From an uncultured Bacteroidales bacterium (GTDB lineage Bacteria > Bacteroidota > Bacteroidia > Bacteroidales > Paludibacteraceae), in contig CADCDS010000017.1 of assembly GCA_902800215.1 (NCBI GenBank), forward strand, positions 1 through 36,660: DNA of 36,660 nucleotides. The letters are read 5' to 3'. The notes beneath the pieces were generated by a model. That model was not told the DNA's origin. It did not search any database and was given only the letters and a program-made list of their open reading frames with translations. The position numbers and the translations under genes were made by a program. This document shows, piece by piece, positions 3,443 to 36,523 of this stretch (the first letter of the stretch is position 1; each line of letters starts with the position of its first letter).

Positions 3443-3503
3443 TTAAATTGTTAAACTGTTAAATTGTTAAACTGTTAGACTGTTAGACTGTTAAATTGTT
3501 AAC
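3443..3503 (+). repeat. 8-bp tandem repeat TTAAAYTG filling the gap before lpxH
   Basis: Seven consecutive octamers (TTAAATTG, TTAAACTG, TTAAATTG, TTAAACTG, TTAGACTG, TTAGACTG, TTAAATTG) and a partial eighth run right up to the start codon at 3504. They occupy almost the whole intergenic space, so copy number changes would alter the spacing in front of the start codon. Confidence 0.9.
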
Positions 3504-4304
3504 ATGATATATTTTTTAAGTGATGCTCATTTGGGTAGCCTGGCGATCGAGAGAGGTTGGGCGCACCAGAAGAAACTCATCCAGATGTTGGAGATGATGA
3601 GTGAGGATGCCGTGTCGATCTACATGTTAGGCGACATGTTTGATTTCTGGATGGAGTATTTCATCCGGGACAAGAAGAAACGGCAGTATAATCCGTTCTT
3701 CAAAGAGTTAAGGAAATTAGCGAAGAAAGGTATTCATATTCATATCTTCACGGGCAACCATGACCTGTGGACCTTCGGTGGTCTGCATAAGATCACGGGT
3801 GCCGAGATTCATTTCAGTCCCTGCACTATCCAGCGTTACGGCAAGACCTTGTACTTGGCGCACGGAGACGGTTTGTTACCGAGCAACTGGGAAGATTACT
3901 ACCCCAGCCGTGTGCGGAAAAAGATCAACCGTTTTATGCGGTTAAAGAAGATTTTTAACAACAGCACGTTGCAGTTCCTGTTCCGTTGTCTGCCGCCGAA
4001 GATCGGCAATAAGATCGGTTACGGCTGGGCGAAGAAGAGTCGTTTGAAAGAGATCGCAAACCCGTGTCCGTTCAAGGGAGAACACAAGGAAGAATTGGTG
4101 CTTTTTGCCAAGGAACAGGAGAAACAGGGCAACCACCGCGACTATTATATCTTCGGTCACCGTCATATCGAGTTGGATCTGCAGATCACGCCGGACAGCC
4201 GCGTGGTGATGTTAGGAGACTGTTTCCAACAATGGACCTATGCCAAATTGGATCATCACGGCCGTTTAACGCTGCATAACTACGAAGGAGAAGATGAGCA
4301 GTAG
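3504..4304 (+). CDS. lpxH: UDP-2,3-diacylglucosamine diphosphatase (LpxH-like metallophosphoesterase)
   Basis: 266 residues with the calcineurin-like metallophosphoesterase motifs in order: SDAHLG at residues 6-11, GDMFDFW near 43-49, GNHD near 84-87, HGDG near 119-122 and GHRHIE near 218-223. This pattern, with a mid-protein basic helical insert (KKSRLKEI), is that of LpxH, which cleaves UDP-2,3-diacylglucosamine to lipid X in lipid A synthesis on the inner face of the inner membrane. A general phosphoesterase of the same fold is the alternative. The last 11 bases overlap mazG, so the two are co-translated. Confidence 0.85.
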   Translation: MIYFLSDAHLGSLAIERGWAHQKKLIQMLEMMSEDAVSIYMLGDMFDFWMEYFIRDKKKRQYNPFFKELRKLAKKGIHIHIFTGNHDLWTFGGLHKITGAEIHFSPCTIQRYGKTLYLAHGDGLLPSNWEDYYPSRVRKKINRFMRLKKIFNNSTLQFLFRCLPPKIGNKIGYGWAKKSRLKEIANPCPFKGEHKEELVLFAKEQEKQGNHRDYYIFGHRHIELDLQITPDSRVVMLGDCFQQWTYAKLDHHGRLTLHNYEGEDEQ

Positions 4305-5094
4305 AGAAGAACAACTGAAGGCTTTTGGTCGGTTATTGGACATCATGGACGAGTTGCGAGAGAAATGTCCATGGGACCGCAAGCAGACGTTTGACAGTTT
4401 GCGCCAGAACACGATCGAGGAGACGTACGAGTTAGCGACGGCGATCTCCCGGCACGACATGAACGAGATCAGCAAGGAACTCGGCGACGTGCTGTTGCAT
4501 GTGGTGTTTTATGCCAAGATGGGTTCCGAAACCGGAGACTTTGATATCGCAGACGTATGTAACCGGATTTCGGATAAGTTGATTTTCCGGCATCCCCATG
4601 TGTATGGAGAGGTTACGGGTGATGGGTTACGGGTTACGGGGAAAGTAGAAAACCCCGATGATGTAAGCAAGCTGTGGGAGCAGGTGAAGCTCAAAGAGAA
4701 AGGCGGAAACAAGACCGTGTTAGGTGGTATTCCGGACAGTTTGCCGAGTATCGTGAAGGCGTACCGAATCCAGGATAAGGTAGCAAACGTGGGTTTTGAC
4801 TGGGAGAAGAAAGAGGATGTCTGGGCGAAGGTGAAAGAGGAAATCGCTGAGTTTGAAGAAGATCCGTGTGAAGCGGAGTTGGGCGATATCCTGTTTGCAC
4901 TCATCAACGCGGCACGGTTGTATAAGTTAAAACCCGACAATGCGCTGGAACAGACGAACCTGAAGTTCATCAAGCGGTTCAACTATATCGAGCAGAAAGC
5001 GAAAGAACAAGGCAAGGACCTCAAAGATATGAGCCTTGCCGAGATGGATGAACTATGGAACGAAGCGAAACAGCGGTTAGCAGTTAGCGATTAG
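4294..5094 (+). CDS. mazG: Nucleoside triphosphate pyrophosphohydrolase MazG
   Basis: 266 residues with two MazG domains. The first has CPWDRKQTFDSLRQNTIEE (about residues 25-43) and ELGDVLLHVVF; the second has EEIAEFEEDP and ELGDILFALINAARL near residues 185-210. These EExxE and ExxD motifs bind the metal ions. The enzyme hydrolyses NTPs to NMP and pyrophosphate. Between the domains the segment GEVTGDGLRVTGK (about residues 106-118) is encoded by a tandem heptamer array rather than conserved sequence. The last residues, RLAVSD, and the stop codon are also made of a heptamer array. The gene starts inside lpxH and converges on a lipoprotein gene 3 bp away. Confidence 0.92.
   Translation: MSSREEQLKAFGRLLDIMDELREKCPWDRKQTFDSLRQNTIEETYELATAISRHDMNEISKELGDVLLHVVFYAKMGSETGDFDIADVCNRISDKLIFRHPHVYGEVTGDGLRVTGKVENPDDVSKLWEQVKLKEKGGNKTVLGGIPDSLPSIVKAYRIQDKVANVGFDWEKKEDVWAKVKEEIAEFEEDPCEAELGDILFALINAARLYKLKPDNALEQTNLKFIKRFNYIEQKAKEQGKDLKDMSLAEMDELWNEAKQRLAVSD
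4613..4640 (+). repeat. In-frame heptamer array TTACGGG in mazG
   Basis: Four heptamers in a row: TTACGGG, TGATGGG, TTACGGG, TTACGGG. They encode a linker between the two MazG domains. The reverse complement of the same word is found in murD and in the gene at 27036. Confidence 0.9.
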
Positions 5095-5103
5095 CGGTTA
5101 GCG
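5076..5103. repeat. Heptamer array RTTAGCR at the convergent ends of mazG and a lipoprotein gene
   Basis: Four heptamers (GTTAGCA, GTTAGCG, ATTAGCG, GTTAGCG). The TAG at 5092-5094 is the mazG stop and the complement of 5098-5100 is the TAA stop of the convergent lipoprotein gene, so one array supplies both stops. Confidence 0.88.
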
Positions 5104-5583
5104 GACTGCAATAAAGAAGTATTTCTGCTGGGAAGCGTAGGGTGCCTCGGCTGCCGAGATAAGGGTCATGTCGATGCGGAATGTTCCGGGACGCAGAGGG
5201 ATGTATTGGAGGGCGGTATAACAGCCGTACACTTTCTCAGGCACAAAAATCAGTTTTCCGTGTTCGGGATCGGATTCTTGCGAAAGCGCTTCTTTGAACT
5301 CGTCATTCCAGGTCAGCGAAACAGCCACGTTCGCTTCATCCGCGGAGACGGTGAAAGTACGGAGGTAGTCATAGTAACCGTTAAGCAGCAGACCAAACTG
5401 AACGGTATCTCCGACGTGGAGAGAATCCGAAAGGAGAATGGTGTCACAGACACCGTTGGTGTCGGTACGAATAATTTCAGACGCCTGTTGAATGGACGGA
5501 GACATAACCGATTTCATCTCACAGGAAACGAAAGCAAAGAGAACGGCTACAAAAGCGAGACCGAGAAAAAGATGTTTTTTCAT
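5098..5583 (-). CDS. Small lipoprotein of unknown function
   Basis: The start is taken at the ATG complementary to 5581-5583, giving 161 residues; a longer frame would begin inside the tRNA gene. MKKHLFLGLAFVAVLFAFVSC is a lipoprotein signal with the lipid-bearing cysteine at residue 21. The rest looks like a beta-rich domain (LHVGDTVQFGLLLNGYYDYL, then RPGTFRIDMTLI), the type seen in small Bacteroidota lipoproteins with an Ig-like fold; the family is not recognised. It begins 19 nt after the tRNA-Leu gene on the same strand with no promoter between, so it probably comes off the tRNA promoter. Its stop codon lies in a heptamer array shared with mazG. Confidence 0.75.
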   Translation of the reverse strand: MKKHLFLGLAFVAVLFAFVSCEMKSVMSPSIQQASEIIRTDTNGVCDTILLSDSLHVGDTVQFGLLLNGYYDYLRTFTVSADEANVAVSLTWNDEFKEALSQESDPEHGKLIFVPEKVYGCYTALQYIPLRPGTFRIDMTLISAAEAPYASQQKYFFIAVR

Positions 5584-5602
5584 TGTTGTACTCCAATAGA
5601 TG

Positions 5603-5684
5603 TGCGGCATAAAAGACTCGAACTTTCACTCCTCTCGGAACCAGATCCTAAGTCTGGCGCGTCTACCAATTCCGCCAATGCCGC
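5603..5684 (-). tRNA. tRNA-Leu (anticodon UAG)
   Basis: 82 nt with acceptor arms GCGGCAT and ATGCCGC, a D-arm start of GGCGGAATTGGTAGACGC, the anticodon arm CCAGA-CTTAGGA-TCTGG with anticodon TAG at 5650-5648, a long variable arm typical of class II tRNA-Leu, and GTTCGAGTC in the T-arm. No CCA is encoded. Its promoter lies at 5695-5728 and a lipoprotein gene follows 19 nt downstream. Confidence 0.95.
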
Positions 5685-5694
5685 GGAAATCGGC

Positions 5695-5728
5695 TGCAAA
5701 ATTAGTACTTTTTTTTGAATTATGCAAG
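5695..5728 (-). promoter_or_regulatory. tRNA-Leu promoter overlapping the start of the M16 peptidase gene
   Basis: On the minus strand CTTGCATAATTC (5728-5717) and TAATTTTGCA (5704-5695), 24 bp start to start. The upstream box covers the ATG (5722-5724) of the divergent peptidase gene. Confidence 0.75.
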
Positions 5729-6960
5729 AAAATTCGCAAACTTTTTATCATAATTTGCCAAATGGCGTTAAAATTGTCCACCGTTGGACACCCTCTCCCG
5801 TTGCCTATGTGGGTGTGATGGTAGGAACGGGTACGCGTGACGAGCGTCCGGAAGAGAACGGAATGGCGCATTACATCGAGCATTGTGTTTTTAAGGGCAC
5901 GACGCACCATTCGGCACGCCAGATCATTCATTCGATAGAAGGAATAGGCGGTGAGATCAATGCGTACACGACCAAGGAGGAGACCACTTTTTACGCGGCG
6001 ATCTTGGCGGAACATGTGCAGTTAACGCTGCATTTGATTGCCGAGATGCTCACGGAACCGGCGTTTAAGAAAGAGGAGACGGACAAGGAGCGGATGGTGA
6101 TTTTGGATGAGATCGAGAGTTACAACGATAGTCCGAGTGAATTGATCTACGATGATTTTGAGAACCTGGTTTTTGCCGGTAGTCCCTTAGCGCAGCCTAT
6201 TTTGGGCACCAAGAAGACGCTCAAACATATCTCGTCGAAGCCGAGTTATGCGCAAGAATGGATGCAGACGCATTACACGCCGGACAGGATGGTGGTTTTC
6301 TGTCAGGGAGATGTGAAACCGGAACGGTTCTTTCGAATTGCGGAGAAGGCATTTGGAACTCTGACTAGGAATCCTAGGGAGCCTAGGGAAACTATGGAGC
6401 CTAGTTTTCTGGAACGTACGCGCGCTTATAAGAAGCACACGCACCAGGTGCACGCGATGATAGGCGGGCGCGCGTATAAAATAGGTCACGAGTTGCAATT
6501 ACCGATGTTTCTGCTCAATAATATCTTAGGCGGCGGCAGTTTGAACAGCCGGTTGAATCTGAGTTTACGGGAGTCAAAAGGACTTGTTTACACGGTAGAA
6601 TCCACTTACACGCCCTTGAGTGACACGGGTTATTGGTGCATCTATTGGGCGTGCGATCCTGAAGATTATAGTTTGAGTTTTTCCTTGGTACGCAAGGAGT
6701 TGGACAAGTTAATGGAAACGCCTTTGAGTCGGTCGGCCTTGCAACATGCCTTGGTGCAGTTGAGAGGACAATTGGCGATTAGTGCGCAGAATCAGGAGAA
6801 CAGTGCGTTGGCATTGGCCAAGTCGGTTTTATACCGCGGTTATGCCCCCGAATGGCAGGAGACAATGCGGCAGATAGAACAGACTACGGAGCTGCAGTTA
6901 CAGGAAGTTGCACAAGAACTTTTCGAAGCTCAAAAAACTTTCATTTTGACATACGAATAG
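5722..6960 (+). CDS. M16-family zinc peptidase (processing-peptidase-like)
   Basis: 412 residues. The inverted zinc motif HYIEH is at residues 50-54, followed by the region with a third ligand (ERMVILDEIESYNDSP). The C-terminal half carries the R/Y substrate-binding region typical of M16B (GLVYTVESTYTPLSDTGYW). Length fits a single-chain M16B enzyme of the YmxG/PqqL-like type. It has no signal peptide, so a cytoplasmic role is likely. The start ATG lies inside the upstream box of the divergent tRNA promoter, and I find no promoter of its own. Residues about 215-229 (LTRNPREPRETMEPSF) come from a 9-bp tandem repeat in a loop before the second domain. Confidence 0.88.
   Translation: MQENSQTFYHNLPNGVKIVHRWTPSPVAYVGVMVGTGTRDERPEENGMAHYIEHCVFKGTTHHSARQIIHSIEGIGGEINAYTTKEETTFYAAILAEHVQLTLHLIAEMLTEPAFKKEETDKERMVILDEIESYNDSPSELIYDDFENLVFAGSPLAQPILGTKKTLKHISSKPSYAQEWMQTHYTPDRMVVFCQGDVKPERFFRIAEKAFGTLTRNPREPRETMEPSFLERTRAYKKHTHQVHAMIGGRAYKIGHELQLPMFLLNNILGGGSLNSRLNLSLRESKGLVYTVESTYTPLSDTGYWCIYWACDPEDYSLSFSLVRKELDKLMETPLSRSALQHALVQLRGQLAISAQNQENSALALAKSVLYRGYAPEWQETMRQIEQTTELQLQEVAQELFEAQKTFILTYE
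6365..6409 (+). repeat. In-frame 9-bp tandem repeat CTAGGGARM in the M16 gene
   Basis: Five nonamers (CTAGGAATC, CTAGGGAGC, CTAGGGAAA, CTATGGAGC, CTAGTTTTC). Because the period is a multiple of three, each copy adds one tripeptide of the type P-R-E. Confidence 0.85.
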
Positions 6961-7020
6961 TTCGATTTTGTAACATTTATACAAAAAATCGCACAAATTT
7001 TGCACTTTTTTGCCAAAAAA

Positions 7021-7054
7021 TTTGGTCAATTAAAAAAAAAGTTGTAATTTTGCG
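7021..7054 (+). promoter_or_regulatory. Bacteroidota-type promoter of the susC operon
   Basis: TTTGGTCAATTA at 7021-7032 and TAATTTTGCG at 7045-7054, 24 bp start to start. The leader of about 50 nt is A-rich near the ATG and has no Shine-Dalgarno sequence. Confidence 0.75.
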
Positions 7055-7110
7055 CGATTTTTCGTATTTACGCGTACGTATAAACATTAAATAAAAAATA
7101 ATAACAAACA

Positions 7111-10413: not shown

Positions 10414-10417
10414 ACAT

Positions 10418-10424
10418 AGGAGGT
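10418..10424 (+). promoter_or_regulatory. Shine-Dalgarno sequence of the susD gene
   Basis: AGGAGGT lies 7 nt before the susD ATG. Such a complete Shine-Dalgarno is unusual in Bacteroidota and in this window; susC and the third gene of the operon have none. Confidence 0.7.
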
Positions 10425-10431
10425 TACAGAT

Positions 10432-16913: not shown

Positions 16914-16966
16914 TTATGCATTCAATTGTTGAAAACTTGTTAACAAAACAATTGAAAACTTTTTTT

Positions 16967-16986
16967 GTGGGGAAATGTGGGGAAAT
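16967..16986 (+). promoter_or_regulatory. Tandem MraZ boxes in front of the dcw cluster
   Basis: Two exact 10-bp direct repeats, GTGGGGAAAT at 16967-16976 and 16977-16986. MraZ of other bacteria binds tandem TGGG repeats with 10-bp spacing before its own gene. They sit where the upstream (TTTG) promoter box would be; the downstream box TAATTTTGCA is at 17001-17010. Auto-repression is therefore likely. A weaker GTGGAGAATT occurs at 17028. Confidence 0.75.
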
Positions 16987-20558: not shown

Positions 20559-22046
20559 ATGATACTTAGCGAATTAATCAGTGTACTCAAACCCCTTGAG
20601 GTCATCGGTACCACGGACAAAGAGATACACGATCTGCATTTTGACAGCCGCAAGATCGGTGAAAATGACTTGTTTGTCGCCCAGGTAGGCACAGCAGTAG
20701 ATGGGCATCAGTTCATTGATGGTTGTGTCGCCAAAGGCGCGGCAGCAGTGGTGTTGAGTAAGCGAGAATACATCAGCCAACAGTCAATAGCCAATAGCCA
20801 ACAGCCGACTTATATCCTCGTCGAAAACACCGACAAGGCCTTGGGACTCTTAGCCTCCAAATGGTTCGGAGAACCGAGCAAACAACTGACTTTGGTAGGC
20901 GTCACCGGTACAAACGGAAAGACCACCATCGCTACCTTATTATATAAACTCGTGCGTGCGTTAGGTCACAAAGCCGGTTTACTGTCCACCGTCGTCAATT
21001 ATATCGAAGACGAAGCCGTTCCAGCCACGCATACCACCCCCGATGCAATCGAGTTAAACGGTCTGTTGCGTCGCATGGTGGATGCCGGTTGCTCCTACGC
21101 GTTCATGGAAGTATCTTCTCATGCCATCGCTCAGGAACGTATCGCCGGTCTGGACTTCAACGGTGCACTGTTCACCAACCTCACACGCGATCATATCGAC
21201 TATCACAAGACCTTCGATAACTATCGCGACACCAAGAAACGGCTCTTTGACAACCTGCCCAAAACGGCTTTTGCCGTTACGAACAAAGATGACAAAAACG
21301 GTCTGGTCATGACGCAGAACTGCAAAGCGGCCGTACACACCTACTCCACCCGTTCGCTGGCCGATTTCAAGGCGCAGATCCTTGAAGAAGGTTTTGACGG
21401 AATGATGCTGAATATCAACGGGAAAGAGGTGTTTGTGCCCCTTGTAGGTCGGTTCAACGTCTCCAACCTGCTCTGTATCTACGGTGCCGCATTATGTCTC
21501 GGTTTTGACGAACTGGAAGTACTGCGTATCCTGAGCACCCTCACACCCGTCAACGGTCGATTTGAAACTATCCACAGCCCTAAAGGTTGGACAGCCATTG
21601 TGGACTATGCCCATACCCCCGATGCGGTGGATAACGTCATACAGACGATCCGGGAGATACTGAGCAATAAAAAGCCAATAGCTAATAGCCAACAGCCAAA
21701 GTTAATCACCGTTATCGGCTGCGGTGGCAACCGCGACAAAGGTAAACGACCCATGATGGCGAAGATCGCCAAAGCCGGCAGCGAACAACTCATCCTTACC
21801 TCCGACAACCCACGTGACGAGGAGCCGCAGGATATCCTCAACGACATGAAAGCCGGACTTACGGAGGACGAACTGCGTACCACTTTGGTCATTGAAGACC
21901 GTGCCGCAGCCATCCAAACGGCTTGTATGCTCGCGCAAGCGAACGATGTCATTCTCGTTGCCGGTAAAGGACACGAAGACTACCAGATCATCAAAGGTGT
22001 CAAGCACCATTTTGACGACCATGAGCAAGTAAAGAAATATATTTGA
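20559..22046 (+). CDS. murE: UDP-MurNAc-L-Ala-D-Glu:meso-diaminopimelate ligase
   Basis: 495 residues. The ATP-binding motif GVTGTNGKTTIATLL is near residues 112-126, and DNPR, the meso-diaminopimelate-selecting motif, is near residues 415-418 (SDNPRDEEP). Other Mur motifs are VSSHAIAQERI and VDYAHTPDAV. It adds meso-DAP to the peptidoglycan precursor in the cytoplasm. Two segments are made of a heptamer array and look like inserts: QQSIANSQQP (about residues 74-83) and KPIANSQQP (about residues 372-380). Confidence 0.95.
   Translation: MILSELISVLKPLEVIGTTDKEIHDLHFDSRKIGENDLFVAQVGTAVDGHQFIDGCVAKGAAAVVLSKREYISQQSIANSQQPTYILVENTDKALGLLASKWFGEPSKQLTLVGVTGTNGKTTIATLLYKLVRALGHKAGLLSTVVNYIEDEAVPATHTTPDAIELNGLLRRMVDAGCSYAFMEVSSHAIAQERIAGLDFNGALFTNLTRDHIDYHKTFDNYRDTKKRLFDNLPKTAFAVTNKDDKNGLVMTQNCKAAVHTYSTRSLADFKAQILEEGFDGMMLNINGKEVFVPLVGRFNVSNLLCIYGAALCLGFDELEVLRILSTLTPVNGRFETIHSPKGWTAIVDYAHTPDAVDNVIQTIREILSNKKPIANSQQPKLITVIGCGGNRDKGKRPMMAKIAKAGSEQLILTSDNPRDEEPQDILNDMKAGLTEDELRTTLVIEDRAAAIQTACMLAQANDVILVAGKGHEDYQIIKGVKHHFDDHEQVKKYI
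20778..20805 (+). repeat. In-frame heptamer array CAAYAGY in murE (first)
   Basis: Four heptamers: CAACAGT, CAATAGC, CAATAGC, CAACAGC. They encode QQSIANSQQP in the N-terminal domain. Confidence 0.9.
21676..21696 (+). repeat. In-frame heptamer array YAAYAGC in murE (second)
   Basis: Three heptamers: CAATAGC, TAATAGC, CAACAGC, the same words as the array 900 bp upstream in the same gene. They encode PIANSQQP before the C-terminal domain. Confidence 0.88.
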
Positions 22047-22067
22047 AATCTAAAATATAAAATAAAA
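22046..22067 (+). repeat. Heptamer array AAATMWA between murE and mraY
   Basis: AAATCTA, AAATATA and AAATAAA run from the murE stop to one base before the mraY ATG and fill the whole gap. AT-rich and short, so less certain than the other arrays. Confidence 0.5.
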
Positions 22068-23345
22068 ATGATATATCATTTTTTTGATCATTTCAACGAC
22101 CTGTTAGGTGCCCGTCTATTCACCTACATCTCCTTCCGAGCCATCATCGCCGGTGTCATCGCTTTGTGCGTAAGCATCTGGTTCGGCAATTGGTTCATCA
22201 ACTTCATGAAACGCCGGAACATCACCGAGACCCAACGCGATGCCAAGATCGATCCGTTCAATGTAGGTAAAGTGGGTGTTCCGACGATGGGTGGACTTAT
22301 CGTCATTGCAGCCATCCTCATCCCGAGTCTGCTGCTGGGCAAACTGAACAACGTCTATATGTTGCTCATGATCATCACCACCCTCATGATGGGCGCGCTG
22401 GGTTTTGCCGATGACTATATCAAGACTTTCAAAAAACGCAAAGACGGTTTGAACGGATGGGTGAAAATCGGCGGTCAGGTAGCATTAGGCCTTATCGTCG
22501 GATTAACCCTGCGTTTCTGCCCTGCTGTCACCATGCACGAACATGTGACCACCACGATGGAGAACAACATCGTCGTAGTGGATCAGTCCACGCAGGAACC
22601 CGTCAAATCAACCCAAACCACCATTCCGTTTGTCAAACATCATAACTTCAACTATGCAGACCTCTTCTCCTGGACGGGAGAAAACAACAAATACCGTTTC
22701 GGCTGGATCTTCTTCGTGATCCTCACCATCATCGTGGTGGCTGCTGTCAGCAACGGCGCCAACCTCAACGACGGCATGGATGGTATGTGTGCCGGAAACT
22801 CAGCGATCATCGGTATCGCCTTGCTCATCTTGGCCTACACAAGCGGTAGTTTTGTGTGGGCGGAGTATTTTGATGTCATGTACATACCCGGTTCCGAAGA
22901 ACTGGTAGTCTTCCTCGCTTCCTTCGTCGGTGCACTGGTCGGTTACCTCTGGTTCAACGGTTTCCCGGCACAGGTCTTCCTGGGGGACACCGGTAGTCTC
23001 ACCATCGGTGGTATCATCGGTGTTTGCGCCATGATGATCCATAAAGAACTGCTCATCCCCATCCTCTGCGGTGTGTTCCTCATGGAAAGCGTTTCCGTCA
23101 TCTTACAGACCCAGGTGTACAAGTTCGCCAAGAAAAGAGGGCAACATATTCGCGTATGGAAACGGGCGCCGTTACATGACCATTTCCGCACATCCGTTGA
23201 TCAGGTGCTTAAGAACGACCCGACCTGCCGCATCCTCTTCAAAGGCAGTCCGAACCTGCATCATGAGACCAAGATCGTGCTCCGTTTCTGCATTGTCACC
23301 CTCATCCTCGCAGCCTTTACAATATTGACATTGAAAATAAGATAA
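22068..23345 (+). CDS. mraY: Phospho-N-acetylmuramoyl-pentapeptide-transferase
   Basis: 425 residues, polytopic membrane protein. The MraY motifs are visible: PTMGGL near residue 70, GFADDYIK near residues 111-118 (metal-binding aspartates), NLNDGMDGMCAG near residues 232-243 and PLHDHF near residue 368. It links UDP-MurNAc-pentapeptide to undecaprenyl phosphate, giving lipid I. An extra loop of about 60 residues (TMHEHVTTTMENN to YADLFSWTGENN) is as in other Bacteroidota MraY proteins. Confidence 0.96.
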   Translation: MIYHFFDHFNDLLGARLFTYISFRAIIAGVIALCVSIWFGNWFINFMKRRNITETQRDAKIDPFNVGKVGVPTMGGLIVIAAILIPSLLLGKLNNVYMLLMIITTLMMGALGFADDYIKTFKKRKDGLNGWVKIGGQVALGLIVGLTLRFCPAVTMHEHVTTTMENNIVVVDQSTQEPVKSTQTTIPFVKHHNFNYADLFSWTGENNKYRFGWIFFVILTIIVVAAVSNGANLNDGMDGMCAGNSAIIGIALLILAYTSGSFVWAEYFDVMYIPGSEELVVFLASFVGALVGYLWFNGFPAQVFLGDTGSLTIGGIIGVCAMMIHKELLIPILCGVFLMESVSVILQTQVYKFAKKRGQHIRVWKRAPLHDHFRTSVDQVLKNDPTCRILFKGSPNLHHETKIVLRFCIVTLILAAFTILTLKIR

Positions 23346-23378
23346 TTCGTAATTCGTAATTTTTAATTTTTAATTATG
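23344..23378 (+). repeat. Heptamer array AATTYKT between mraY and murD
   Basis: AATTCGT, AATTCGT, AATTTTT, AATTTTT, AATTATG: the array begins in the mraY stop codon and its last unit contains the murD start codon, so it fills the entire junction. Confidence 0.85.
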
Positions 23379-25916: not shown

Positions 25917-27023
25917 ATGAAATATTTAATCTCCGGAGGGGGAACCGGTGGACATATATTCCCCGCTGTCAGCATTGCCAATGCATTGAAAGAGTTGGAC
26001 CCGCAAGCCGAGATCCTCTTCGTAGGAGCGCTGGGTCGTATGGAGATGGAGCGTGTTCCGCAAGCCGGTTATAACATCGTCGGTTTACCCGTTCGCGGTT
26101 TTAACCGTGCCCAACCCTGGAAGAACGTCTCCGTACTCATGGACCTCTTCAAGTCCCTCAAACAAGTCAAACGCATCATCCGTGATTTCCGGCCTGACGT
26201 AGGTGTCGGTGTTGGCGGTTACGCCTCCGGTGCAGCGATGTGGCAGGCGTCCAAAATGGGCATTCCTATCCTGCTGCAGGAACAAAACGGTTTCGCCGGA
26301 GTCACCAATAAAATCCTCAAAGACAAGGCCGCTAAGATCTGCGTCGCCTACGAAGGTATGGAGCGATTCTTCCCTGCCGATAAGATCATCCTTACCGGTA
26401 ACCCCGTTCGTCAGAACCTGCTAAACGGTGTCAAACAACCTCAAACAACATCAAACAACGTCAAACATCTCTTGATCATCGGCGGTTCTCTCGGTGCTCG
26501 CACCATCAACGAAGCCATCCTTGCTGGTCTGCCCGAGTTGCAGAAAGCCGGCATCCACGTCGTCTGGCAAACAGGCAAATACTACTACGAAAATATCAAA
26601 TCTTCAATCTCCAATCTCCAATCTCCAATTTCCAATCTCCAATCTCCAATTGAGGAATGGTTGGAAGTCCAACCTTTCCTCTCTGACATGCCCGACCGTT
26701 ACGCCAATGCCGACCTCGTCATCAGCCGTGCCGGTGCCTCGTCGATCAGCGAACTCTGTCTGCTCGGCAAACCCGCTATCCTCGTGCCCTCTCCCAACGT
26801 AGCCGAAGATCATCAGACCCATAACGCCATGGCACTCGTTCGCAAAGATGCCGCCGTACTCGTCAAAGACAGCGAAGCAGCTGACAAACTCGTTTCCACG
26901 GCTTTGGAACTCATCAAGGACGATGCCAAACTGCAATCCCTGCATACGAACATCCTTACACTCGCACAAACGGATTCCGCACGCCGCATCGCAGAAGAAG
27001 TTATCAAACTGGCACACAAATAA
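25917..27023 (+). CDS. murG: UDP-GlcNAc:lipid I N-acetylglucosaminyltransferase
   Basis: 368 residues from the ATG at 25917; a TTG nine bases upstream inside ftsW is possible but gives three extra residues the family lacks. N-terminal GGGTGGHIFPA (about residues 7-17), GVGGYASGAAM and QEQNGFAGVTNK are MurG motifs, as are GGSLGART and SRAGASSISEL in the C-terminal half. It adds GlcNAc to lipid I at the inner membrane. Two arrays give in-frame inserts, KQPQTTSNNVK (about residues 172-182) and SSISNLQSPISNLQSPI (about residues 229-246), the latter in the linker region between strands of the C-terminal domain. Confidence 0.95.
   Translation: MKYLISGGGTGGHIFPAVSIANALKELDPQAEILFVGALGRMEMERVPQAGYNIVGLPVRGFNRAQPWKNVSVLMDLFKSLKQVKRIIRDFRPDVGVGVGGYASGAAMWQASKMGIPILLQEQNGFAGVTNKILKDKAAKICVAYEGMERFFPADKIILTGNPVRQNLLNGVKQPQTTSNNVKHLLIIGGSLGARTINEAILAGLPELQKAGIHVVWQTGKYYYENIKSSISNLQSPISNLQSPIEEWLEVQPFLSDMPDRYANADLVISRAGASSISELCLLGKPAILVPSPNVAEDHQTHNAMALVRKDAAVLVKDSEAADKLVSTALELIKDDAKLQSLHTNILTLAQTDSARRIAEEVIKLAHK
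26431..26467 (+). repeat. In-frame 10-bp array TCAAACAACN in murG
   Basis: Three decamers (TCAAACAACC, TCAAACAACA, TCAAACAACG) and a partial fourth. Nearly the same decamer forms the array at 36484, about 10 kb away in non-coding DNA. Confidence 0.88.
26605..26651 (+). repeat. In-frame heptamer array CAATYTC in murG
   Basis: Six heptamers, all CAATCTC except one CAATTTC, and a partial seventh. It encodes repeated SNLQSPI. Each set of three units (21 bp) adds seven residues without changing frame. Confidence 0.92.
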
Positions 27024-27035: not shown

Positions 27036-28079
27036 ATGAAGAGATCCCTTGTCTTAACCCTTTGCGGATTACTGCTATCCGCCGTCACGTGGGCGGCATC
27101 CGGCATCAACTACAACGGCACCAACCTCGCATTGGACAATGCGTTTACGCGCACCCAATGCGGCACGACGAATAAAGATGAACTTAAAGAGATAAGCGGT
27201 TTGGCTTGTTCACGTACCACCCCCGGTTACCTCTGGGCACACGGCGACGAGAACACAGGAAACAACAAGAAGATCGTGGCACTCACGCCTTCCGGCTCCA
27301 TAACCATGACGGTGAAGATCAGCAATGACCCGGGACGGGATGACTGGGAAGATATCGCCACCGGTATCTATAACAGCACCAACTACCTCTTCATCGGCGC
27401 CTTTGGCGATAACGACCTCGCGTTCAACGACGAATACTATATCTATTATCTCCCCGAACCTGCCATCACCGGCGGCACCCAGACACTCGCCGTCAACTAT
27501 ATCCGTTTCGGCTATCCCGACAACCAAGCGCATAACACCGAGACACTCATGTACGATAACATCGAACAGATGCTCTACATCGTGGATAAAGTCAAAGACG
27601 GAGTCTGTACCCTGTATCAACTGCCGTTCCGAACCGATTACGGCACCGGCGTGCAACGGTTAACCAAAGTGTGTGAGTTAGGAAACGGCAGTAAGTTCAA
27701 TTTCCTCACCGCCGGTGACATCACACCCGACGGACACTGGATGGCTATCAAAAGCAAAAAATACGTCTTACTGTGGGAACGACAAGGTTCCGAAAGCCTT
27801 TCCGTCACCGCTACCCGCCAACCTGTGCAGATCGCCGCCTATGAGGAAGAAGAACAAGGCGAATCGCTCGCCTGGTACGACGCTTCCCTTTTCTATACCA
27901 CCAGCGACAGCAAAAAGAACACCCCCATCTATCAGTACCAGCGTCCCATCGACACGTCCGCTCTCGATCCCGTAACCGCTAACCCCTCACCCGTAACCCA
28001 TCAGGTCATCCGTGATGGCCAAATCCTCATCCTCCGTGATAGCAAGACCTACACCGTGATGGGCATGGAATTGAAATAA
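27036..28079 (+). CDS. Secreted beta-propeller-like protein with shared C-terminal tail
   Basis: 347 residues. Residues 1-20 are a signal peptide (ending TWAA). The sequence ELKEISGLACSRTTPGYLWA, then DDWEDIATGIYNSTNYLFIG, resembles secreted Bacteroidota proteins with a beta-propeller of the SdiA-regulated kind (motifs ISGL, DWED, GAFGDND); function unknown. Residues about 312-320 (PVTANPSPVT) are encoded by a heptamer array, followed by the tail VIRDGQILILRDSKTYTVMG, which also ends the two later secreted proteins. It begins 12 bp after murG, in the place usually held by murC, so it may be expressed with the dcw cluster. Confidence 0.75.
   Translation: MKRSLVLTLCGLLLSAVTWAASGINYNGTNLALDNAFTRTQCGTTNKDELKEISGLACSRTTPGYLWAHGDENTGNNKKIVALTPSGSITMTVKISNDPGRDDWEDIATGIYNSTNYLFIGAFGDNDLAFNDEYYIYYLPEPAITGGTQTLAVNYIRFGYPDNQAHNTETLMYDNIEQMLYIVDKVKDGVCTLYQLPFRTDYGTGVQRLTKVCELGNGSKFNFLTAGDITPDGHWMAIKSKKYVLLWERQGSESLSVTATRQPVQIAAYEEEEQGESLAWYDASLFYTTSDSKKNTPIYQYQRPIDTSALDPVTANPSPVTHQVIRDGQILILRDSKTYTVMGMELK
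27969..27996 (+). repeat. In-frame heptamer array CCCGTAA before the C-terminal tail
   Basis: CCCGTAA, CCGCTAA, CCCCTCA, CCCGTAA. It gives PVTANPSPVT, nearly the same peptide as in murD, and lies between the propeller-like domain and the sorting-type tail. Confidence 0.9.
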
Positions 28080-28083
28080 TTTG

Positions 28084-30276: not shown

Positions 30277-30285
30277 TTTAATAGT

Positions 30286-30432: not shown

Positions 30433-30450
30433 TCCATAATTTAATACATT

Positions 30451-32469: not shown

Positions 32470-32495
32470 GCAGAGCTATCAGGCTATCCCTTTCG

Positions 32496-32525
32496 AGCCG
32501 CATCTCTTTGGAGGTGCGGCTTTTT
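32496..32525 (+). terminator. Terminator of the secreted-protein operon
   Basis: An 11-bp stem (one wobble) pairs 32496-32506 with 32511-32521 over a TTTG loop and is followed by TTTTT. It ends the transcript begun at 28146. Confidence 0.85.
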
Positions 32526-32543
32526 CGTAAGTATGCCGGAGGA
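32521..32543 (+). repeat. Left copy of a 23-bp direct repeat flanking the ATPase module
   Basis: Starts with the T-tract of the terminator and continues CGTAAGTATGCCGGAGGA. An exact copy is at 36200-36222, again directly after a terminator stem. Confidence 0.85.
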
Positions 32544-32586
32544 ACACTCCCGGACCCGTCGTCCCGAGCATTCCCCCCTCCGGTGT

Positions 32587-32691
32587 ACGAAAACACGTAA
32601 CGATTTATCACGAAAACACGTAACAAACAGTCTCAACTTGCCGAACAAAATAGTCTCAATATGCCGAATAAAACAGTCTCAACTTGCCGAA
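32587..32691 (+). repeat. Two 23-bp-period direct repeat arrays before the first ATPase gene
   Basis: ACGAAAACACGTAAC occurs at 32587 and 32610 (23 bp apart). AGTCTCAACTTGCCGAA-like units occur at 32629, 32652 and 32675 (23 bp apart). The last copy ends 13 bp before the upstream promoter box. They look like binding sites for a regulator, possibly for autoregulation. Confidence 0.75.
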
Positions 32692-32704
32692 TTTTCAAAA
32701 AATA

Positions 32705-32738
32705 TTTGCATATATCAATTATTTTTACTACCTTTGCA
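32705..32738 (+). promoter_or_regulatory. Bacteroidota-type promoter of the first ATPase gene
   Basis: TTTGCATATATC at 32705-32716 and TACCTTTGCA at 32729-32738, 24 bp start to start; leader about 18 nt. Confidence 0.85.
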
Positions 32739-32761
32739 GCGGATTTTGAAAATCAACCAAA

Positions 32762-34036
32762 ATGGAGAAGTACAAACAACGCGTGGCGGACTTATTATTA
32801 GAACGCAAATTAGCCGGTAAAGGAGCAGTGTTAGTGGTTGGTCCTAAATGGTGCGGTAAAACAACAACAGCCAAACAACAATCAAAAAGTCTTTTGGATC
32901 TAAGCAAGAAACTGATCTTAGACCAGAGTCTTCAGATGATGGATATCAATCCGGAGAGTTTGCTTGTGGGAGACACTCCTCGTTTGATTGATGAGTGGCA
33001 ACAGATACCAGCGCTGTGGGATGTGGTACGGACAGAAGTGGACGAACGGAATGAGTTCGGTCAGTTCGTGCTGACCGGTAGTGCTGTGCTTCCCAAAGCG
33101 GAAGAAACGCTGCATAGCGGTACAGGCAGAATAGGTCGTCTCAAGATGCGTCCCATGAGTCTGTACGAGTCAGGTGAAAGTACAGGAGAGGTTACGCTAA
33201 CTGATTTGTTTAATAAAGCCGATATCCCTGTCATTCAACATAACAAATCTTTGGAAGAGATGGCATTCCTGATCTGTCGCGGTGGTTGGCCGCAAGCGAC
33301 TTTCCTGCAAGGTGATATTGCGCTTGATCAAGCAGAAGACTATGTTGAATCCCTTCTCAACATTGATATGCATCGAGTAGATAAGGTGCAACGCTCATCG
33401 GAAAGAATGCGTTATATTATGCGCTCCTACGCTCGCCATCAAGGTGCTCAATGCCCGATAAGTATGATTCGGGAAGATTTGTTGGGTAGCGATGGGCAGT
33501 CCATATCCGATGATACGATATCTTCTTATCTAGGTGTGCTGAATAGATTATATGTCATTGAAGATATGCCGGCTTGGAATCCGAACTTACGTTCAAAAGC
33601 AGCTATTCGAACGTCCGCAACACGCTATTACATTGATCCATCCATCGCTACTGCAACTTTGGGAATTGCCCCGAAAGATCTCATCAATGATCTGCGTACA
33701 TTCGGTTTCATGTTTGAAACAATGGCTGTAAGAGATATTCGAGTGTATGCTGATGCGTTGAAAGCAAAAGTGTATCACTTCAGAGATAGTAATGGCTTGG
33801 AATGCGATACGGTTATTCATCGCCGCGACGGTAGTTATGGACTGGTAGAGATCAAATTAGGAGGACCTAACAACATAGAACAAGCAGCTACTAATCTTCA
33901 AACTCTGGCGAATACCATTGATACCGAAAAAATGGCTGCTCCAAGTTTCATGATGGTTCTTACCGCTATTGGACCGTACGCCTATCGCCGTAAGGATGGC
34001 GTATATGTGGTGCCATTGGCTTGCTTAAGACCATAA
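32762..34036 (+). CDS. P-loop ATPase of the AAA_14/DUF4143 family
   Basis: 424 residues. Walker A is GPKWCGKT at residues 27-34. The Walker-B-like PRLIDEWQQIP is near residues 74-84, and FVLTGSAVLP near 101-110 is the sensor motif. The C-terminal DUF4143 domain contains a PD-(D/E)xK-like core, ECDTVIHRRDG near residue 347 and VEIKLGG near residue 362. Family members are common in Bacteroidota and archaea and are of unknown function, often mobile and variable between strains. It has its own promoter, repeat arrays before it and a terminator after it. Confidence 0.88.
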   Translation: MEKYKQRVADLLLERKLAGKGAVLVVGPKWCGKTTTAKQQSKSLLDLSKKLILDQSLQMMDINPESLLVGDTPRLIDEWQQIPALWDVVRTEVDERNEFGQFVLTGSAVLPKAEETLHSGTGRIGRLKMRPMSLYESGESTGEVTLTDLFNKADIPVIQHNKSLEEMAFLICRGGWPQATFLQGDIALDQAEDYVESLLNIDMHRVDKVQRSSERMRYIMRSYARHQGAQCPISMIREDLLGSDGQSISDDTISSYLGVLNRLYVIEDMPAWNPNLRSKAAIRTSATRYYIDPSIATATLGIAPKDLINDLRTFGFMFETMAVRDIRVYADALKAKVYHFRDSNGLECDTVIHRRDGSYGLVEIKLGGPNNIEQAATNLQTLANTIDTEKMAAPSFMMVLTAIGPYAYRRKDGVYVVPLACLRP

Positions 34037-34075
34037 TCGTATTCCCCTTTGCCTTCATCGGCTTCTCTCGATCTA

Positions 34076-34107
34076 CGTCGACCTCATTTGAGGCCGGCGT
34101 TTTTTTT
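34076..34107 (+). terminator. Terminator of the first ATPase gene
   Basis: An 11-bp stem with one mismatch starts at 34076 (CGTCGACCTC, loop ATTT, GAGGCCGGCG) and is followed by eight T at 34100-34107. Confidence 0.8.
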
Positions 34108-34143
34108 ATGCCCTAATAGTAATCATTTAAACAACAAAAAACA

Positions 34144-34361
34144 ATGAACAAGTATCAGTATCTGATCAAAAAAAAGAAAGCGGAGAGTTGAGCATTCTCT
34201 TTGAGTTGGGACTTCCCGTTCATTTATCCGGTTGGATGGAGTATTATGCGTATCATTTAGCGCATCCGAAGATGAGCAACGTGGAAATTTCGTACTATTT
34301 TACAGCAACGAAGAGTACCATTCAACGAGCTATCACATTTATGGAGTCTCCGATTGGATAG
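34144..34361 (+). pseudogene. Small HTH protein gene split by a frameshift (or expressed by -1 frameshifting)
   Basis: Frame 0 from the ATG at 34144 gives MNKYQYLIKKKKAES and stops at 34189-34191. A -1 shift on A AAA AAG (34170-34176) instead gives a 72-residue protein: MNKYQYLIKKK, then ESGELSILFELGLPVHLSGW and PKMSNVEISYYFTATKSTIQ, ending at the TAG at 34359. The part MSNVEISYYFTATKSTIQRA reads as a helix-turn-helix. The slip site lies in a run of eight A. Either one A was lost (pseudogene or sequencing error) or the heptamer is a programmed slip site as in dnaX. No strong downstream stimulatory hairpin is seen. It lies between the two ATPase genes. Confidence 0.55.
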
Positions 34362-34375
34362 CATTCTATTCACAC

Positions 34376-34404
34376 AAATGCCGACCCTCATCAGGTCGGC
34401 ATTT
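34376..34404. terminator. Bidirectional terminator between convergent genes
   Basis: An 11-bp perfect stem pairs 34376-34386 with 34394-34404 over a 7-nt loop, with moderately T-rich flanks on both strands. It serves the small HTH gene and the leftward ATPase gene, which ends at 34407. Confidence 0.75.
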
Positions 34405-34406
34405 GC

Positions 34407-35831
34407 TTATTCTTGGAACAGGTCGTCCATGGTTAATTCTTCTGCAACCTCGGAGGAATGGATATTATGCTTAAGACCGTAGCTTGTGATCATCGTCAAT
34501 CGAATGGCTTGGCGGGATTCGGTCTCGGAGATGAAATTGCGCTGACGAGTGTTTAATTTCTTCTCTTCGTCCTCCTTGATGGAATATTCGCCCTGAGAGT
34601 ACTTGATCTCGCATAAGTTAACGATACCGTCTGCACGGTCTAACAACAAATCAATCTGCGATGCCGGAGTTGAATATTTACTGCGCCATGCGTAATATTC
34701 CACACCGATTCGGTCGATACCAAGCGCTTTCTTGATCGGCTCAATATGGTGCATAGCTACTCGTTCGTATGCTATACCTTGCCAAGTGTGCAGATCGGAA
34801 GTGTTGAGATGGTTTTGCCAGTAATTGCCGTCTGTGATGCCTTTCTTTGCAAAATGAATATGGAACAGACAGAACATGTCCGTTAGCTGGTATACTTTTT
34901 CGGTACGTTTGATCTTCTTTTCGCGCGTAAAGAACGACCGAACGAAATCGCACTGCTCCAGTTCTTTGAGAAGTTTGCTCAGGTTGCCTCCGGTTTTCAT
35001 CTTCAACTCATCGCTGATATCGTCGCGGGTCATGCCGTGTTTGTGTTGCGAAAGAACCTCAATGATCTTGCGGTAAGGTTCGGGCGATCGGAAAAGAGAA
35101 GCCAACATGCGGCTATACTCTCCGCTCAACGGCGCGTCTTTCCGGAAATACAACCGATCCACAGCTTGCGGAAGGCTTTCCTTTGGATTGACCAAACTCA
35201 AATAGAACGGTATTCCGCCAAAGACCATGTAGAACTGTAGCACCATGTTCCTGTTCCACAGCACGCGGCGTTCATTCAGATATTGCTCACATTCTTTGAG
35301 CGTGAATGGATGAAGGTGAATGGTGCTGGTGATACGGTCGTGTAAGCCTCCGTGGCTGTCAATTAGATTTTTGATCATCCATGATGTCGCACTACCGCAT
35401 ACGATCAGTTTGACATTCGAGTAATTGGAAGCCCATGTGTTCCAGAAATAATCCAATGCTGGTACGAAACCAGAACGCGGTGTGTCCAGACATGGCATTT
35501 CATCGATGAAGATGACGCACGTTTCTCCGCTTTCTGCCTTTGGCTGGAGTAACTTGCGCAGGGAGTAGAACATGTCCATCCAGGTCTTTCCTTGCGGAAC
35601 AGGAGCGCCATAGGAATCTAATGCTTGCATGAACGCTTTCACTTGCGTGTGCGTTTTTTCATTAAGGACGCCTGACGCGTAAAACGTGATTTGGTCACGC
35701 AGATGTTCCTTGATCAGGAATGTTTTTCCTACACGGCGACGACCATAGACTGCGATAAACTCCGCTTTGTCGCTATTAAGCAACTGCGATAACTGTGCTT
35801 TCTCTTGCTCTCTTCCAAATAAGGCACTCAT
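34407..35831 (-). CDS. P-loop ATPase of the archaeal ATPase/DUF234 family
   Basis: 474 residues from the ATG complementary to 35829-35831; a longer frame to 35930 would translate the promoter and operator repeats, so I reject it. Walker A is GRRRVGKT at residues 30-37, Walker B is VIFIDEMP at residues 106-113, and CGSATSW is a sensor motif. A winged-helix region follows (HGMTRDDISDELKMKTGGNL), and the C-terminal domain has a nuclease-like core (QIDLLLDRADGIVNLCEIKY, with D394, E408 and K410). Function is unknown. It shares architecture, but little sequence, with the ATPase at 32762, and the two genes converge. Confidence 0.88.
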   Translation of the reverse strand: MSALFGREQEKAQLSQLLNSDKAEFIAVYGRRRVGKTFLIKEHLRDQITFYASGVLNEKTHTQVKAFMQALDSYGAPVPQGKTWMDMFYSLRKLLQPKAESGETCVIFIDEMPCLDTPRSGFVPALDYFWNTWASNYSNVKLIVCGSATSWMIKNLIDSHGGLHDRITSTIHLHPFTLKECEQYLNERRVLWNRNMVLQFYMVFGGIPFYLSLVNPKESLPQAVDRLYFRKDAPLSGEYSRMLASLFRSPEPYRKIIEVLSQHKHGMTRDDISDELKMKTGGNLSKLLKELEQCDFVRSFFTREKKIKRTEKVYQLTDMFCLFHIHFAKKGITDGNYWQNHLNTSDLHTWQGIAYERVAMHHIEPIKKALGIDRIGVEYYAWRSKYSTPASQIDLLLDRADGIVNLCEIKYSQGEYSIKEDEEKKLNTRQRNFISETESRQAIRLTMITSYGLKHNIHSSEVAEELTMDDLFQE

Positions 35832-35853
35832 AGTACTCTTGATTAAAAACCGC

Positions 35854-35887
35854 TGCAAAGGTACAACTTTTTTTTGAATTGTGCAAA
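35854..35887 (-). promoter_or_regulatory. Bacteroidota-type promoter of the second ATPase gene
   Basis: On the minus strand TTTGCACAATTC (35887-35876) and TACCTTTGCA (35863-35854), 24 bp start to start. The leader to the ATG at 35831 is about 17 nt. Confidence 0.82.
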
Positions 35888-35890
35888 TAA

Positions 35891-35982
35891 ATTCAGCCAA
35901 ATCGGTGAATTTTTCTTTAATTTGGCGCATTTTTAATATTAAAACTCAGCCAAATCGACGAAATTTGCTTCAATTTGGCGCA
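35891..35982 (-). promoter_or_regulatory. Two operator-like dyad repeats upstream of the second ATPase promoter
   Basis: Two 39-bp copies at 35891-35929 and 35944-35982 match at 33 of 39 positions and are 53 bp apart, about five helical turns. Each has inverted arms GCCAAAT and ATTTGGC. The first copy abuts the upstream promoter box, where bound protein would block polymerase. Confidence 0.7.
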
Positions 35983-36173
35983 GTTTAGTTGCCTTAACTG
36001 GCGGAAATCGGGTAGATTTGTGCAAATAGAATGGGAGCATAGTAGCATTGTCCAGTCGCAAGTCATGTTAGACGACCTCTTTCTTCCGAATAGAGAATGA
36101 TAAATATCGTTACTTAAACGATTAAGCGGTAAATCCAATAAGTATAAAAAACAAACAAAACCCTTTATCTTTT

Positions 36174-36204
36174 CCCCGTCATGTACTCCATGGCGGGGAT
36201 TTTT
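36174..36204 (+). terminator. Rightward terminator ahead of the right 23-bp repeat
   Basis: A 10-bp stem with one wobble pairs 36174-36183 with 36189-36198, followed by ATTTTT. No intact rightward gene precedes it within the window, so its transcript is unknown. Confidence 0.7.
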
Positions 36205-36222
36205 CGTAAGTATGCCGGAGGA
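36200..36222 (+). repeat. Right copy of the 23-bp direct repeat flanking the ATPase module
   Basis: Identical to 32521-32543 over 23 bp, and again beginning with the T-tract of a terminator. The repeats are 3,679 bp apart. Confidence 0.85.
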
Positions 36223-36256
36223 TACGAATAATTACTGAAATATGCAAGGAAAATTA

Positions 36257-36319
36257 AAGATTTCAACTAAAAATAGTCAAAAATATGCCGATAGGTCGTT
36301 GAAATCTTGAATTTTTGAC
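36257..36319. repeat. Two interleaved inverted repeats
   Basis: AAGATTTCAAC (36257-36267) is inverted at 36298-36308, and GTCAAAAAT (36275-36283) is inverted at 36311-36319. The order A-B-A'-B' cannot form two nested hairpins but could form a pseudoknot, or two overlapping operator pairs. Confidence 0.75.
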
Positions 36320-36417
36320 CACATTTCAACATAAAAACAGTGTTTTATTGCGCAGTATAATATCCTATACCCACACACGACCCGTCATCACGGGCTATGT
36401 GTTTCGTAGAAAAGCAG

Positions 36418-36427
36418 TACCTTTGCA
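36418..36427 (+). promoter_or_regulatory. Downstream promoter box of the gene at the right edge
   Basis: TACCTTTGCA matches the downstream element of the other promoters. The upstream TTTG box is missing; a small dyad CCCGT/ACGGG (36381-36394) lies near its expected place. A perfect 14-bp palindrome GGCTGGCGCCAGCC follows at 36455-36468 in the leader. Confidence 0.55.
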
Positions 36428-36483
36428 CTCGAAATCGATTTACAGCTAACAAACGGCTGGCGCCAGCCATAATTTTTAAACCG

Positions 36484-36523
36484 TCAAACGATGTCAAACG
36501 ACATCAAACGACATCAAACAATT
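36484..36523 (+). repeat. 10-bp tandem repeat TCAAACGAYR before the right-edge gene
   Basis: Four decamers (TCAAACGATG, TCAAACGACA, TCAAACGACA, TCAAACAATT) just before the start codon at 36532. The core word TCAAACRAC is the same as in the murG array at 26431. Confidence 0.88.

Follow-up and report, generated by a model that had tools for sequence, protein, structure and literature searches.

The 36,660-bp window analysed here, which is contig C17 of the draft genome G000 (1,963,562 bp, 85% complete), carries arrays of short tandem direct repeats, and the words of these arrays are not private to their loci: a small vocabulary (CCNNTMA, AATNNCM, TAACNNTT and TCAAACNANN) recurs in G000 at numerous loci that are unrelated to one another, and the words of other species are different. 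Each word consists of a nearly invariant core and a few free spacer positions, and the repeat period belongs to the site while the word changes. A first-pass annotation of the window had listed arrays at 13 places and had stated that each locus has its own word; the places were borne out, but the words turned out to come from a common stock. G000 was searched alongside 12 congeners, and the genomes compared are drafts, the named ones mostly metagenome-assembled genomes (MAGs). The nearest named relatives of the window's MurE carry Paludibacteraceae or Bacteroidales bacterium in their titles and come in many cases from rumen or gut; judging from these relatives the family would be Paludibacteraceae.

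Sharing of words was seen in the sampled G000 DNA (436,660 bp, made up of the window and twenty 20-kb stretches), where the word CCCGTAA was found at 16 loci with unrelated flanks, two of these loci having two units only. Across the whole G000 genome, the rule CCNNTMA gave 63+75 matches and the reversed pattern 36+38; the reversed pattern is not a clean null, because it is close to the AATNNCC word. The word TAACNNTT formed 34 arrays genome-wide, including the one at 3442, with 0 matches to its reversed pattern. The exact AATCTCC array was counted 8 times in G000 and was absent from all of 295 other Bacteroidota genomes, and over 61 genomes of the genus CCCGTMA was present in 12, GTCRAAA in 27 and GGACAAW in 10. 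Among 195 period-7 arrays at 60 loci, a common word was shared by 19.6% of 388 same-genome pairs compared to 7.6% after shuffling (the largest of 1000 shuffles reached 12.1%; the shuffles ignore kinship). When arrays of different genomes were paired by coding site, a common word was present in 22.1% of 154 pairs, compared to 7.2% of 18,373 other pairs. As same-genome and same-site pairs share words most, the words track the genome as well as the ancestry of the site. In a scan of viral contigs for this single word, GTCRAAA arrays resembling those of the congeners were also seen in 39 stretches (L165-L203, IMG/VR).

The results also showed that differences between adjacent units cluster at certain positions of a word, and that these positions are equal across unrelated loci. 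Mismatches by position were 0,0,0,0,15,30,3,4 for TAACAGTT (14 loci, all intergenic, P ≤ 5e-5), 1,0,0,31,3,12,11 for AATCTCC (22 loci; P ≤ 5e-5 for the 8 intergenic loci alone) and 2,0,12,7,0,3,9 for AACAGCC (11 loci, P = 0.01), while TCAAACAACG has six invariant positions followed by 7,0,5,11 (7 loci, P ≤ 5e-5). Position-specific variation was likewise found for CCCGTAA over 10 loci (P = 2e-4). In the TAACNNTT 8-mer arrays, identical neighbouring spacers were rarer than chance (8/96 vs 16.8, P = 0.007), which is the opposite of what unit duplication would produce. The excess of identical neighbours was not significant (P = 0.08) in a third 7-mer family (9/58 vs 5.5) and in the 10-mer (3/19 vs 1.1). 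The number of units had its mode at 4 in all five families tested, with a search minimum of 3 units (2 for the 10-mer).

Three candidate readings of the unit variants were dropped. RNA-type wobble was rejected, as transitions were not dominant in every word (transitions/transversions were 40/12 for TAACAGTT, 25/8 for AACAGCC, 6/19 for CCCGTAA, 29/29 for AATCTCC and 11/12 for TCAAAC). A single master copy for the 8-mer family was ruled out by the differing spacer strings among loci. A fixed order of CCCGTAA variants, considered as proof of copying, held only in the 16 CCCGTAA loci above, a set for which two leading CCCGT units had been required and in which CCGGTAA or CCTGTAA was always the fourth unit.

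The abundance of arrays was compared with Markov samples, which also served as the shuffles for the window scan and the neighbour-identity tests. The 436,660-bp sample contained 131 arrays compared to ~1.4 per pass of second-order Markov sequence (five passes), and 70 period-7 arrays compared to 0.2 per pass, so in the sampled DNA 7-bp arrays lie well above chance, in support of the first-pass annotation. Two congeners were also rich, with period-7 densities of 8.6 and 6.7 per 100 kb, in stretches partly picked for word matches; because some G004 and G007 stretches were chosen on contigs with known word matches, the array densities and top words of these two genomes are biased upward. Over 387,412 bp from ten genomes of other families, 16 arrays were counted, and a single one had period 7. 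In 80 named loci around murE (1,472,757 bp), 368 arrays were found, 265 of them with periods 4-12; these comprised 144 of period 7, 75 of period 11 and 18 of periods 6, 9 or 12, and periods 15, 18, 21 and 24 added 41 arrays. As periods 7 and 11 far outnumber 6, 9 and 12, the period is not tuned to the reading frame.

Arrays were placed with a home-made codon-usage gene caller, by which in-frame arrays are stop-free by construction. With this caller, 46 of the 113 arrays with periods 4-12 in the G000 sample lay inside reading frames, even though coding DNA makes up 85% of the sample; by period, the coding share was 39/73 for 7-mers, 2/22 for 8-mers, 1/7 for 10-mers and 0/6 for 11-mers. Period-7 arrays were 19-73 bp long, and 41 of the 73 measured 31-34 bp. 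Arrays were found in both orientations. The C/A-rich strand was the coding strand in 33 of the 46 coding arrays (P = 0.005). Junction arrays lay in codirectional gaps in 50 of 63 cases (P = 1e-4), and in these 50 the C/A-rich strand coincided with the gene strand 21 times and with its complement 29 times; 27 ended at most 21 bp from the next start and 30 began at most 23 bp from the previous stop.

The period was found to follow the site in a set of 39 close species with MurE, with fewer species at other sites. Period 7 was seen in 11/11 arrays at MurE loop 1, 10/10 at MurE loop 2, 6/6 at the MurD loop and 16/20 at the murE-mraY junction, and period 11 in 17/23 arrays at the mraZ-mraW junction; an association of site and period this strong was reached by 0 of 5000 permutations. 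Pairs of the same period shared a word in 14/146 cases at mraZ-mraW, 9/55 at MurE loop 1 and 42/123 at murE-mraY, and the mraZ-mraW 11-mers of the sisters L046 and L053 have different words. Among 34 close species with the mraZ-mraW gap, 17 carry an 11-mer array, with words that change (for example L045:6314, L053:6780, L046:6837 and L036:6654) and units that often have an AA..AC core. The possibility that these 11-mers are MraZ boxes was dropped, as the only box-like repeat in the mraZ gene set (n = 55) sits at the start of mraZ. In the window, TGTGGGGAAA occurs there twice, at 16966-16986 (TGTGGGGAAATGTGGGGAAAT), and it was also seen in L066 and L081; with its GTGGG repeats, TGTGGGGAAATGTGGGGAAAT is presumably a MraZ box.

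Sequence alignments indicate that the arrays in MazG, MurD, MurE and MurG are in-frame loop inserts that are absent or different in relatives, in agreement with the first-pass annotation, which had taken them for apparent inserts in frame. At the MazG site (4611), no comparable insert was found in 17 of 20 congeners and a different insert in 3. G003 and G006 lack the MurD array, which faces gaps in a solved MurD, and the MurG array faces a gap in a solved MurG. For MurE, the best hit among solved structures shows no gap opposite the array stretches, and the MurE comparison therefore rests on congeners (species at ≥78% identity), many of which have loops 1 and 2 empty; elsewhere these loops are filled by AACAGCC, CCCGTAA, GGACAAT, AGTCGAA or AATCATC. 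Loop 1 of the sisters L048, L062 and L060 holds three different inserts. In the M16 peptidase loop, 11-mer arrays with other words were found in the four relatives at ≥77% identity that could be anchored; two anchored relatives at 64-65% identity had no 11-mer, and 13 relatives could not be anchored. In the MurD array, the stop triplet of CCCGTAA is replaced by TCA exactly where a stop would be in frame. The TCA variant was also found where no stop threatens, on the other strand at L025:4581, indicating that it pre-exists in the pool. Other short in-frame inserts (e.g. PSPALPSREGEKP, SPLRGEPERG and PCSDLSRPEAKRP) were seen in the MurE loops of L036, L039, L040, L049, L058, L060 and L062, and several of the non-heptamer MurE inserts are C/G-rich and apparently palindromic, in loops common to heptamer arrays.

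Closely related loci were also compared. L043, L045 and L054 are 87-90% identical over the loci and their MurE is nearly identical in the parts compared; the MurE differences form short blocks round loops 1 and 2, synonymous changes included, and the loop-1 block of L043 resembles L035 and L037. Clustering of differences in ~60-150 bp blocks round the loops was seen in both MurE and MurD of this trio. The alignments of these blocks suggest short-tract recombination between species. Pairwise whole-locus alignments were noisy outside the mur cluster, and well-aligned indels alone were taken from them. A junction array of the sister species L045 and L054 differs in length by 41 bp. A cleaner insert is seen in MurD of L050 and L052, which differs by +21 bp between conserved flanks (locus pair 88.7% identical).

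In the window itself, 12 of the 13 listed arrays were recovered by Tandem Repeats Finder (TRF; score ≥30) (Table 1). The thirteenth, at 27969, has too little self-similarity for TRF; it reads CCCGTAA, CCGCTAA, CCCCTCA, CCCGTAA, CCCATCA, and 5/5 of its units fit CCNNTMA. This pattern matched 6 times in the window, spread over the three loci 4611-4640 (minus strand), 24487 and 27969, compared to 0 in 100 dinucleotide shuffles. A stricter scan (periods 5-12; control, 50 first-order Markov shuffles of the window) gave 8 arrays (five 7-mers, one 8-mer and two 10-mers) compared to 0 at those periods in the shuffles, and missed those at 4611, 6365, 21673, 22046 and 27969. The array at 22046 had been described as a weaker heptamer case, and its low TRF score agrees with this. 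The first-pass annotation had also named MazG, M16 peptidase, MurE, MurD and MurG as hosts of in-frame arrays, and Pfam matches were obtained for all of these and for MraY (glycosyltransferase family 4). Gene 3504-4304 had a weak metallophosphatase match and gene 27036-28079 had no Pfam match. AACAGCC-type words occur at both MurE loops of the window, and TCAAAC 10-mers at 26431 and 36484. Apart from the listed arrays, 23-bp direct repeats were seen at 32587-32692 (about three copies of AAACAGTCTCAACTTGCCGAATA, with another 23-bp pair before them), upstream of an open reading frame (ORF) at 32762.

Table 1. Tandem arrays in the 36,660-bp window
Array	Position	Strand	Context	Found by
8-mer TAACNNTT, core TAAC..TT	3442..3502	-	fills gap ahead of gene 3504-4304	TRF, stricter scan
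7-mer CCCGTAA/CCCATCA (CCNNTMA word)	4611..4640	-	in frame in mazG, +9 aa	TRF
7-mer CCGCTAA	5072..5104	-	mazG 3' end into junction	TRF, stricter scan
9-mer, 74% matches	6365..6404	+	in frame, M16 peptidase loop	TRF
7-mer AACAGCC/AATAGCC	20774..20806	+	MurE loop 1	TRF, stricter scan
7-mer AATAGCC	21673..21699	+	MurE loop 2, +8 aa vs empty form	TRF
weak 7-mer AAATATA	22046..22069	+	murE-mraY junction	TRF, score 34
two abutting 7-mer words, TAATTCG and TAATTTT	23343..23375	+	mraY-murD junction	TRF, stricter scan
7-mer CCCGTAA/CCCGTCA/CCGGTAA	24486..24517	+	in frame in MurD (TRNPSPVTGNP, +10 aa)	TRF, stricter scan
10-mer TCAAACNANN	26431..26467	+	in frame in MurG	TRF, stricter scan
7-mer AATCTCC	26599..26650	+	in frame in MurG (SNLQSPISNLQSPI)	TRF, stricter scan
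degenerate 7-mer, five CCNNTMA units	27969..28003	+	in frame near C-terminus of gene 27036-28079	pattern match
10-mer TCAAACNANN	36483..36519	+	12 bp 5' of ATG (36532), or within longer ORF from 36397	TRF, stricter scan

The reading that we favour, tentatively and with well under even confidence, is that whole cassettes are copied within a genome and then homogenised, and that loop alleles are also exchanged between species. The elements would be dispersed direct-repeat cassettes, usually of about four units of 7 bp but also of 8, 10 or 11 bp, and each species would have its own vocabulary of them. A block of ~30 bp would be copied from an existing array to a new place in the same genome, possibly by short-homology template switching and not by reverse transcription; insertion as a block is suggested by the prevailing length of the period-7 arrays (31-34 bp in 41/73), by their presence in reading frames (39/73) and by the 21-bp difference between L050 and L052. 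Purifying selection would then keep cassettes in junctions or in protein loops, as their distribution and the alignments support, with the conditions in loops that the length be a multiple of three and that no in-frame stop arise. The site would persist with its period while the word drifts and is homogenised, a process to which the pattern among close species points, and loop alleles would be swapped between related species through ~60-150 bp recombination tracts, as seen in one trio. The invariant core hints that a protein or process may read the word in trans. Several results weigh against cassette copying. The genomes searched yielded neither a source locus nor an enzyme nor an intermediate of insertion, and no target-site duplication was established in the arrays compared; the array edges fade and have no sharp ends. 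The TAACNNTT spacer strings differ from locus to locus. CCGGTAA and CCTGTAA take other positions elsewhere (for example at C1:100787, C2:45632, C6:25441 and C6:90623, among the first matches listed for CCNNTMA), and the position pattern of CCCGTAA was not significant in 5 intergenic loci alone (P = 0.15). Same-coding-site pairs between genomes share words as often as within-genome pairs, and since 22.1% of the former match, part of the word sharing is ancestry. In coding loops, the period-by-site pattern may partly be frame selection.

Some of these results would be expected if each array had grown on its own, in place, through replication slippage, an explanation that Mrazek et al. (2007), as summarised in PMC4679880, proposed for heptanucleotide repeats and that we consider rather unlikely here. 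Identical neighbours were commoner than chance in AATNNCM (49/92 vs 22.5) and CCNNTMA (24/81 vs 16.3), as slippage predicts, and the fading edges and the 41-bp difference between L045 and L054 fit it; heptamers are also the commonest class in the parts of PMC4679880 used here. However, words are common to loci genome-wide, multiples of three make up only 18 of the 265 arrays of periods 4-12 compared to 144 arrays with 7-bp and 75 with 11-bp units, and 39/73 period-7 arrays are coding, where a change by one unit disrupts the reading frame. An essential frame does not survive the addition of one 7-bp unit, words recur in trans, and identical neighbours are avoided among 8-mer spacers, so unit-by-unit slippage at each locus would not be sufficient; the active expansion that the first-pass annotation had put forward was not supported as the whole story, although the two 7-mer families above run opposite to the 8-mer.

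A recogniser of the core that acts in trans is nearly as likely as cassette copying, possible but still doubtful. The tandem core would be recognised by one or more species-specific DNA-binding factors, and arrays, those in tolerant loops included, would be built and kept by selection or by a bias in uptake and recombination; nucleoid, segregation, recombination and DNA uptake are roles that might, with the same doubt, be considered for such a factor. Consistent with this are the near-invariant core and free spacer at the same positions in unrelated loci (intergenic arrays of several words included), the avoidance of identity by neighbouring 8-mer spacers, the mode of four units, the occurrence of both orientations and the short recombination blocks round loops. 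Against it, each genome has several unrelated words and periods, a candidate factor was not identified, and it is hard to see why in-frame sites in essential enzymes would be favoured and not just tolerated. ComEC was found in 9/9 genus genomes tested, but the search also matched 10/14 control genomes and thus proves nothing. A more far-reaching form of recognition, unlikely in our judgement, is a tandem code in species 'dialects' (invariant core, free spacer, spacing of 7, 8, 10 or 11 bp), which would be read by fast-evolving trans-acting factors and spread by biased recombination or uptake, even into loops of essential cell-wall enzymes where they lie in frame; the period would be largely of the site and the word largely of the species. 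A dedicated mobile element, resembling repetitive extragenic palindromic (REP) sequences or miniature inverted-repeat transposable elements (MITEs) and moved by a transposase or reverse transcriptase, with the array as its minimal form, is very improbable. In-frame insertion into housekeeping genes does resemble Rickettsia palindromic elements, and the MurE loops also take other short inserts, some apparently palindromic, but reverse transcriptase had 0 matches in G000 (85% complete) and in 9/12 congeners, and the arrays showed neither terminal inverted repeats nor a defined duplication of the target. Y1 transposase had two partial matches in G000 barely above cut-off (~50/121 positions) and none in G001, G002, G004, G005 and G006. 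Reverse transcription and Y1 transposases were accordingly dropped as the driver, unsupported by these searches. An assembly or binning artefact, which draft genomes and MAGs might suggest, has a negligible chance, given that dozens of species, each assembled separately, have the arrays in frame and at consistent sites.

Heptanucleotide short tandemly repeated repetitive (STRR) sequences of cyanobacteria have 7-bp units, and DNA uptake sequences of Neisseriaceae are single words of 10-12 bases, not tandem arrays. In the portions of PMC4679880 drawn on here, TAACTGA repeats are described from Beggiatoaceae, cyanobacteria and five Bacteroidetes, a few of them within ORFs, one of these at the end of a MurG, and other heptamers from Microcystis (a range), Gramella and Elizabethkingia; the repeats lie mostly in junctions, often just 5' of start codons, are patchy among relatives, and led to the proposal of mobility or of a repeat-binding protein. 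The first-pass annotation had known of no described counterpart in Bacteroidota, a view that these five Bacteroidetes overturn: heptamer repeats in Bacteroidota are already known (PMC4679880). Literature searches, which covered open-licence PMC papers, gave no account of core/spacer vocabularies from Paludibacteraceae.

The Paludibacteraceae arrays resemble the repeats in those portions of PMC4679880 in being heptamer direct repeats in junctions, some within ORFs, and differ from them in having many words of 7, 8, 10 and 11 bp within one genome, with core and spacer, in that about half of the G000 7-mer arrays lie in frames, and in that species differ in the word at a site whose position and period are retained. 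BOGUAY, as presented there, has one dominant heptamer, with related heptamers rare, and mostly one orientation before the start codon, whereas G000 has many words of several unit lengths and, in codirectional gaps, the two orientations in 21 and 29 of 50 arrays. The dominance of 7-bp units in G000 is shared with heptanucleotide STRR and long simple sequence repeats (LSSR), as far as the excerpts of PMC4679880 and PMC4692102 go; multiples of three are likeliest in coding regions in the STRR/LSSR reports (as cited in the same parts of PMC4679880), whereas the coding arrays of G000 are mostly 7-mers. Rickettsia palindromic elements, in the excerpt of PMC10969869 consulted, are ~150-bp palindromes that lie in frame in metabolic genes; the arrays are like them in being in frame in housekeeping genes (MurD, MurE, MazG) and empty in relatives, and unlike them in being ~30-bp direct repeats. 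As species-specific short words dispersed genome-wide, they also recall the DNA uptake sequence dialects of Neisseriaceae described in the section of PMC3630211 used here.

Short tandem repeats in bacteria are usually taken as slippage noise or as phase-variation switches. In Paludibacteraceae, they act as a reusable vocabulary of core and spacer, in which the same places, some of them within essential enzymes, are kept while the words of sister species change. Caution is called for where MurD, MurE, MurG and similar genes serve as markers, as gaps in their alignments may be repeat inserts or recombined loop alleles. What copies, homogenises and reads such words can now be addressed from sequence data alone.

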